From the NCBI GenBank assembly GCA_022651005.1, contig JALCQD010000001.1, positions 496,001 to 560,000 on the forward strand: 64,000 nt of DNA, in the 5' to 3' direction. The notes under the pieces are model-generated. The model ran no database searches and had not been told where the DNA came from. It was given only the letters and a program-made list of their open reading frames with translations. This document shows, piece by piece, positions 14,779 through 16,498 of this stretch; position 1 is the first letter of the stretch; each line of letters starts with the position of its first letter. The position numbers and the translations under genes were made by a program. This DNA is from Bifidobacteriaceae bacterium (GTDB taxonomy: Bacteria > Actinomycetota > Actinomycetes > Actinomycetales > Bifidobacteriaceae).

Positions 14779-15570
14779 ATGACAACCACCATCGTTTCAA
14801 CAGACGGAAGCGCTTTGAGCAACCCAAACGGGCCGATGGGATGGGGCTGGGCCAATCACAACGACCGCAGCCACGACGCGGGCGGTGCCACCAACGGCAC
14901 AAACCAAATCGGTGAGCTGTGCGCCGTGCTCCAGGCCTTACGCACGCACCACAACGCCGAGGACCTGCTCATCGAAACGGACTCGCAATACGCCATCAAC
15001 TGCTCCACCACGTGGGTTCACAACTGGAAGAAGAACGGTTGGCGCAACGCCGCCAAGAAGCCAGTGAAAAACGTGGAACTCATCAAGGCCATAGATTTTG
15101 AGATGCACAACCGGCCCGGCTCCGTGGCGTTCAAGTGGGTCAAGGGCCACGCCGGCAATGAGTTCAATGAGATCGTCGACGATCTGGCGCGCGGTTACGC
15201 AGGCGACGCCCAGTCGGGCGCAAAGCCCGGGAAGCTGCCGTTGGAGGGATGGCAGTCGCTGCTGAATTCTCCCTATCGCAAGGGGTTGGAAGTCCCCGCC
15301 GACGTACAGGCGCAACTTGACGGGAACGCGGGCGTGGCGACGGCCACGGCAACCGCTCCCGTGACCACGGCGCTCCCCGTCTCCGCCACACCTGCAGATT
15401 CTTCGACTGCGACGCCAGCGGATGCAGCTCCCGAAGAACCCAGCGCTGCCAATGGGTACGGAACGCTCGAACAGCTGTCGCTCTTCGACGATCCCGAGCC
15501 CACCGCCGAACCTGAACCACCCGCATCATCTCCCGAGGAAGACGATCCGCGCCAGGCAACGCTGTTTTAA
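14779..15570 (+). CDS. rnhA: Ribonuclease HI with C-terminal extension carrying clamp-binding-like motifs
   Basis: A 263-residue RNase HI that cleaves RNA in RNA-DNA hybrids. The catalytic set aligns with the classic enzyme: Asp9 (STDGSA), Glu46 (IGELCAV), Asp68 (ETDSQY), His124 (KGHAGNEFN) and Asp134 (EIVDDLAR). The core ends near residue 145, close to normal length. An extension of about 110 residues, mostly Ala/Thr/Pro/Glu, carries EQLSLFDD at 231-238 and ends in RQATLF at 258-263. The pentapeptide QLSLF is the textbook bacterial sliding-clamp-binding consensus, and QATLF is a looser match. The start at 14779 has GGAGAG upstream. It is divergent from the flavin reductase operon. Confidence 0.93.
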   Translation: MTTTIVSTDGSALSNPNGPMGWGWANHNDRSHDAGGATNGTNQIGELCAVLQALRTHHNAEDLLIETDSQYAINCSTTWVHNWKKNGWRNAAKKPVKNVELIKAIDFEMHNRPGSVAFKWVKGHAGNEFNEIVDDLARGYAGDAQSGAKPGKLPLEGWQSLLNSPYRKGLEVPADVQAQLDGNAGVATATATAPVTTALPVSATPADSSTATPADAAPEEPSAANGYGTLEQLSLFDDPEPTAEPEPPASSPEEDDPRQATLF

Positions 15571-15799
15571 GATCTCTGAGCACCATCAATCCAGATCGCC
15601 GCGCTTTCGCAAGTCGCTATCGCACCAACGCCACACGACCTCTCACAAAGCATTATGCGAACTCCTTCAGTTCACGCCCTCGCGATAGAATAAGACCGTT
15701 CAAAGAGACTGCCGACGCGGTGTTGCCTTCACGAGTTCTCTCGTACAGCGCGCACGATGCCGGCGTGGGATCGAAATGTTTAGACGAAGGAGACTCCCC

Positions 15800-16498
15800 A
15801 TGGATCAAGAAGAACAGAACAAGCTGAAGAAGGCCGCGGGCATCAAGGCCGCGCAGTTGATTGAGAACGGCATGGTCGCAGGTCTTGGAACAGGCTCCAC
15901 CGTCCGTTACTTCGTGGACGAGCTCGGCCGTCGCGTGAAGGAAGAGGGCCTGAGCTTCACCGGCGTCACCACTTCCGTACGCACCAAGGAGCAGGCGGAG
16001 GGCTACGGCATCAAGATTGTGGACGTGGACGATGTCGAGAGCATTGATCTCACCGTTGACGGCGCAGACGAAGTCGACAAGGACTTCAACGGCATCAAGG
16101 GCGGCGGCGCTGCACTGCTGTGGGAGAAGATCGTGGCTACGAACTCCAAGAAGATCGTGTGGATCGTGGACCAGTCCAAGGTGGTCGACACCATCGGCAA
16201 GTTCCCGCTCCCCGTCGAGGTCATTCCCTTCGGTGCCGGCCACGTCATCAAGACCTTCGAAGCAAAGGGATACAAGCCGGTTCTTCGTCTGGACGACTCG
16301 GGCACACCCGTGCGCACCGACGAGAAGAACTTCGTCGTTGACCTGCATCTCGAGAAGATCGAGCACCCGCAGGAGCTGGCGGACGATCTCATCCACACCG
16401 TTGGCGTGGTGGAGCACGGCCTATTCCTCAATATGGTGAACACGGTTATCGTGGGCGCCGAGGGCGAGCCAAAGGTTCTCACCAACCCCAACAAGTAA
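15800..16498 (+). CDS. rpiA: Ribose-5-phosphate isomerase A
   Basis: A 232-residue enzyme interconverting ribose-5-phosphate and ribulose-5-phosphate, needed for the bifid shunt and for pentose use. Motifs are [15 protein letters not shown] for phosphate binding, the [10 protein letters not shown] segment, the catalytic [15 protein letters not shown] and [14 protein letters not shown]. The ATG at 15800 has AAGGAGA at proper distance; the frame is open slightly further upstream but without support. It is followed by a very long perfect hairpin. Its position next to arabinofuranosidase and near the ara genes agrees with pentose metabolism. Confidence 0.97.

Follow-up and report, generated by a model that had tools for sequence, protein, structure and literature searches.

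The window, that is, the whole stretch of 64,000 nucleotides analysed here (Bifidobacteriaceae bacterium, GenBank assembly GCA_022651005.1, contig JALCQD010000001.1, positions 496,001 to 560,000), contains an RNase HI gene, rnhA, whose product carries a C-terminal extension. The features of the locus are as follows.

14779..15570, plus strand: rnhA, RNase HI with C-terminal extension, 263 aa and stop
14788..15192, plus strand: RNase H catalytic domain, residues 4-138 (Pfam PF00075, invariant active site, pLDDT about 85-97)
15214..15318, plus strand: post-catalytic helical segment, residues 146-180 (LPLEGWQSLLNSPY...GLEVPADVQAQL), recognized by modelled helices and by recurrence in many Bifidobacteriaceae
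15328..15471, plus strand: variable Ala/Pro/Thr-rich linker, residues 184-231, disordered (pLDDT mostly <50) and divergent among congeners
15472..15486, plus strand: QLSLF, internal clamp-binding-like motif, residues 232-236, followed by acidic DDPEP
15553..15567, plus strand: QATLF, C-terminal clamp-binding-like motif, residues 259-263, with TAA next
15776-16498: rpiA (ribose-5-phosphate isomerase), the neighbour of rnhA in the window

The match of residues 4-138 to Pfam RNase_H (PF00075; 5.2e-32) is the single PF00075 match in a search of the source genome, and the residues D9, E46, D68, H124 and D134 are invariant. The protein has the RNase_H fold and the D-E-D-D active site with the histidine by which an RNase HI is recognized, and the solved structures nearest to it are those of E. 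coli RNase HI. Behind the catalytic domain, the EGWQSLL of the post-catalytic segment recurs in many relatives. The first-pass annotation had placed QLSLF at residues 232-236 and QATLF in the last five positions, which is borne out by the translation of the reading frame; the tail peptides bearing them are TLEQLSLFDDPEP and EDDPRQATLF. In an AlphaFold2 model built from 29 sequences, a confident fold was obtained for residues 1-180, with helices at residues 155-162 and 174-180, and none for residues 184-263. The pLDDT of the latter is mostly below 50, including the motif-containing stretches 219-243 and 249-263, and both motifs therefore sit in a disordered tail.

The C-terminal statistics for the whole proteome rest on DNA pattern searches. 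Searched in six frames, the 2.16-Mb source genome contains the C-terminal QxxLF pattern 12 times, with four of these in frame to the stop. The three in-frame ends other than that of rnhA belong to short or arginine-rich ORFs that are not gene-like, and the same six-frame search of the 2.16 Mb found a QxxLF end in no other plausible gene. For QLxLF, the first 30 of 51 six-frame matches were examined; among these 30, the copies in real genes lie mostly within folded proteins (an ABC ATPase, a D-aminoacyl-tRNA deacylase-like protein, RuvB and transporters), and the only QLxLF-type copies that look like clamp motifs are those of DnaE1 and RnhA.

Tail motifs within the genus and the family

The tail of the congener G001 reads ALEQLSLFDEPTPAPDAPQDGPEDPEEEDPRQATLF, that of the window protein TLEQLSLFDDPEPTAEPEPPASSPEEDDPRQATLF. 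QLSLF and QATLF are identical in the two, the linker has diverged, and the codons differ by synonymous changes (CAGCTGTCGCTCTTC in G001 versus CAGCTGTCACTTTTC in the window for QLSLF, CAGGCAACGCTGTTT versus CAGGCGACCCTGTTC for QATLF). With residues kept, codons changed and a different linker, the motif peptides are, to judge from this pair of sequences, under purifying selection. The second congener, G002, has QPALF as the internal and QGSLF as the terminal motif, at the same distances from the end as those of the window protein.

An RnhA match was found in 186 of the 189 genomes of the family Bifidobacteriaceae, and about a hundred of the family tails were examined. (Handles are our own: L for loci, G for genomes, C for contigs, f for groups beyond the family and g for genera.) A terminal xxLF is present in nine of 16 family genera (g1, g3, g9, g10, g11, g13, g14, g15 and g16; in g13 in one of three species), in the variants QDTLF, QETLF, QNTLF, QGTLF, QSALF, YQTLF, SLTLF, QSSLF, QEMLF and NGLLF. 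In g3, g11, g14 and g15 (L099-L104, L140-L146), a conserved segment resembling an amphipathic helix (ATERFDLAAQRLQLASEHMDQAVAKLDEAIRRFDD) stands before the terminal QxTLF; the window protein does not have this segment. Two g13 species (L069 on the minus strand, L071 on the plus strand) have no stop between rnhA and the neighbouring rpiA, resulting in a single open frame RnhA-linker-RpiA that may be a fusion or may reflect a stop lost in assembly.

The presence of two motifs in one chain can be read in another way, namely that one of them alone, QLSLF or QATLF, is a clamp site, with the other copy coincidental or vestigial. Only one motif is clear in most relatives (terminal in g9, g10, g16, f8 and f21; internal in f5, f11, f16g67, f18 and f38), QATLF has Ala at its second position, and the internal motif of G002 is QPALF. 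Both motifs are, however, present in all three species of the window genus and in all five g3 species examined, where DQPLF or DQALF is kept 64 residues from the terminal QDTLF, and a single working site thus appears to be the less likely arrangement, if one that deserves attention.

The genera g5, g6 and g7 correspond, by inference, to Bifidobacterium sensu lato, on the basis that locus L006 of Bifidobacterium xylocopae equals the g6 row L070. None of their 61 tails carries a clamp-like motif, and LF is rarer in them than in shuffled tails (2 seen versus 13.5 expected). Their RnhA proteins (L078-L098, L127-L139, L147-L166) have a long variable linker and then, in place of the LF motif, a conserved C-terminal segment, SGLTVSGTLxFxPxPxxSPxFxGxPxxIxGxIxVxGYVDGDGxLxL; a Pfam search returned no match for this C-terminal domain. 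The tails of g2, g4, g8 and g12 are short and without the motif, which is also absent from the tails of f6g21, f3g81 and f5g46. Given its absence from Bifidobacterium sensu lato and a few further genera, the motif is a trait of certain lineages and not a mark of all Bifidobacteriaceae. The alignment test named by the first-pass annotation, of whether the motifs are kept across the family and the linker not, was thus passed within the genus, by G001 and G002, and for the terminal xxLF in somewhat over half of the family genera, and failed in Bifidobacterium sensu lato and those few other genera.

Tail motifs in other Actinobacteria

Searches at the order and class levels, together with about 170 further loci, were used to follow the tail beyond the family; the query was the full-length window protein, which may slightly favour tailed relatives. 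The bare tails of f8 and f21 end in DTLF, DVLF, DALF, STLFD, VTLF, ALTLF or ATLF, those of f16g80 in PLSLF and those of f3g33 in GTLF or DALF. In f5, f11, f16g67, f18 and f38 the motif is internal, in the forms QADLFSEL, QLDLFSEL, QPDLFSML, QLDLFSAF, QASLFDEI, EPDLFSEL, DALFSFD and QLSLFDDE (L349), and lies in a linker that leads to a DUF4440 domain or to a short segment with an end like FLRGLI; in two f38 proteins the chain stops directly behind it (DADLFSGL, ELDLFSLL). In other Actinomycetales (L207, L209, L210, L311, L319-L330, L353, L355, L364-L374), the RNase HI is fused to a C-terminal domain, with the LF motif in the linker between the two; the fused domain was tested for L209 and matches DUF4440 (Pfam, 2.9e-12). 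Genomes of f8 such as G195, G253, G331 and G409 carry two RNases HI, a short classical one without a tail motif and a window-like one with an LF motif at its end, and this pairing suggests that the two share the work between them. No LF was found in the tails of the more distant actinobacterial RNases HI L384-L407, and none of 60 RNases HI, mostly from proteobacteria, ends in LF. The catalytic-domain tree, in which L307 is an aberrant row, is poorly resolved and requires up to 18 gains or losses of LF, and therefore dates neither gain nor loss.

Shuffled tails provided the expected counts. In a genus-level sample (one protein per genus, n = 48 genera outside Bifidobacterium sensu lato with tails of 15 residues or more), LF was present anywhere in 42/48 tails versus 12.2 expected, [DSTA]LF in 36/48 versus 4.8, Qxx[LM]F in 16/48 versus 0.7 and LF at the very end in 16/48 versus 0.12; not one of the 2000 shuffles came up to any of the four counts, in which genera of one family are not independent. 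Among the 131 tailed relatives outside Bifidobacterium sensu lato, 17 have a QxxLF end (0.01 expected), 38 an LF end (0.29 expected) and 31 a Qxx[LM]F anywhere (1.4 expected). A chance origin of the tail motifs was ruled out by these shuffles and by the in-genome counts. Motifs arising as chance products of a low-complexity tail, without function, are barely credible: the linker is indeed of low complexity and the motif was lost in Bifidobacterium sensu lato, but the shuffles, the codon changes between the congeners and the recurrence in many genera all contradict such an origin.

The residues surrounding LF are also biased. At position -3, Q is enriched 7.6-fold and E 3.1-fold; at -1, T is enriched 3.8-fold and D 3.6-fold; and directly after LF, S is enriched 4.7-fold and D 4.0-fold, with acidic residues following. 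At the level of sequence, these letters are in agreement with the clamp-binding consensus.

The sliding clamp as the putative partner

Peptides that bind the bacterial beta clamp follow the consensus Q-aliphatic-x-[LM]-[FL], with QLxLF as the strongest form, and several of them are C-terminal (PMC11139829). The first-position Gln matters for affinity in E. coli, and the QADMF of Pol III alpha is functional with Ala at position 2, at lower affinity (PMC11139829). QLSLF is a full match to this consensus, and QATLF departs from it at most by the size of the residue at position 2. The window RnhA also has what is looked for in a clamp client, an exposed or disordered motif that is conserved amid unconserved surroundings. 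The DnaN of the source genome (G000:C3, L279) has 13 of 22 examined E. coli beta groove positions identical, including R152, L155, T172, R176, L177, P242, R246, N320, Y323, P363, M364 and R365, and its peptide groove is largely conserved. In the same genome, NucS ends in KSDDITLF, and DnaE1 carries QFDLF followed by acidic residues (QFDLFADSAPED, EGQFDLFADSAPEDK); wherever the NucS end was readable, in 22 of 22 genomes, it was LF. Clamp binding is the best reading of the RnhA tail because these clamp clients of the same genome carry the same kind of peptide (DITLF in NucS, QFDLF in DnaE1).

It is therefore proposed, with good but not full confidence, that the disordered tail of RnhA, through QLSLF and the terminal QATLF, binds the DnaN sliding clamp in its hydrophobic peptide groove and tethers the enzyme to DNA-bound clamps at the fork or behind it. 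Clamps persist on the lagging strand, close to the RNA primers, and are also present at forks obstructed by R-loops. The tether would raise the concentration of the enzyme locally at clamps, and RNA-DNA hybrids (Okazaki primers, and R-loops met by the fork) would be cut where clamps sit. With two motifs per chain and two grooves per clamp dimer, avidity would be possible. Of the two sites, QLSLF should be the stronger, because its second position is Leu and not Ala; QATLF should be the weaker, its free C-terminus being acceptable as in NucS. Against clamp binding speak the lack of the motif in Bifidobacterium sensu lato and the other genera named above, the weak Ala at position 2 of QATLF and the many relatives outside the family without the first-position Gln, although actinobacterial NucS lacks this Gln likewise.

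These same relatives raise the question of whether DnaN is the partner, or whether LF is a conserved linear motif recognized by something else (another replication protein, a transcription protein, or the protein's own fold), with the likeness to clamp motifs limited to the hydrophobic LF pair. Beyond Bifidobacteriaceae, E, D or P often takes the place of Q at position 1, and many internal copies continue into DLFSEL or ALFSFD, more than a pentamer needs. However, Q at -3 is still the most enriched letter, exact copies of QLDLF and QLSLF occur in distant genera (L229, L311, L326, L349), and the clamp client NucS of these genomes uses the same xTLF and xRLF ends, which together leave another partner as an unlikely explanation.

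With clamp binding as the preferred reading, the view of the first-pass annotation that this RNase HI is recruited to the replication clamp was probably right, with one correction: a wide range of actinobacterial RNases HI share the trait, which Bifidobacterium itself lacks. The wider proposal, held somewhat less firmly than that for the window protein, is that much of the Actinomycetales, along with some orders near them, have an RNase HI that is a dedicated clamp client, in which a disordered xx[DST]LF has been kept at the C-terminus or between domains while its surroundings were replaced (bare tail, helical tail or DUF4440 domain). The removal of hybrids would then be coupled to the clamp like mismatch cleavage by NucS, and Bifidobacterium sensu lato would have swapped the motif for an unrelated C-terminal domain. 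RnhA would probably be a new client of a known hub, DnaN: motif and enzyme are already known kinds, and what is new is their union. If true, primer and R-loop removal would be coupled, in a major phylum, to the hub used by polymerases and NucS, and the clamp interactome, called incomplete by reviews, would gain one more client. The idea is testable with two peptides and one purified protein.

Comparison with known systems

The closest likeness is to EndoMS/NucS, the mismatch endonuclease of Actinobacteria, which is also a nuclease ending in xxTLF or xxRLF (here DITLF versus QATLF). In C. glutamicum, the C-terminus of NucS, with the clamp motif [E/K][L/Y][T/R]LF, is required for DnaN binding and activation (PMC8228993). 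Fold and substrate are unrelated in the two enzymes, and the NucS motif follows closely behind the folded domain, in contrast to RnhA, in which the linker is long and disordered and a second motif lies internally. The QFDLF of Pol III alpha (DnaE1) with its acidic residues resembles the EQLSLFDDPEP of RnhA, but lies in an internal loop of a replicative polymerase, in which a single motif was found. The actinobacterial PolA2 has QxxLF (QSSLF in S. coelicolor) in an unstructured loop and is a predicted clamp client with confident complex models (PMC12926913). PolA2 thus shares with RnhA a QxxLF in disorder, and differs in being a polymerase and not an RNase H.

E. coli RNase HI and the window RnhA belong to the same enzyme family, have the same catalytic residues and presumably do the same job at the replisome, but the E. 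coli enzyme has 155 aa and no tail. Its SSB-binding surface includes Lys60. The loop of this residue is poorly aligned: the window protein has His, in its relatives P, R, K or H predominates, and Lys is missing there as well from the majority of the compared RNases HI, which are mainly proteobacterial. The E. coli enzyme is stimulated by SSB and reaches the replisome through the SSB C-terminus (PMC11253446). With this route to forks worked out, a clamp-bound RNase HI, if true, would be a new way of recruitment; a search of the open literature (paywalled papers and preprints being outside its scope) found no account of clamp binding by a bacterial RNase HI.

In eukaryotes and archaea, RNase H2/RNase HII is bound to PCNA through a short motif, an RNase H on a sliding clamp as is proposed for the window RnhA. 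The PCNA case concerns a type 2 RNase H, the present one a type 1 RNase HI and the bacterial clamp. The RNase HII of E. coli does not bind the clamp (PMC11253446). If clamp binding by RnhA is true, it would provide a bacterial parallel to the PCNA-bound RNases H of the other domains.
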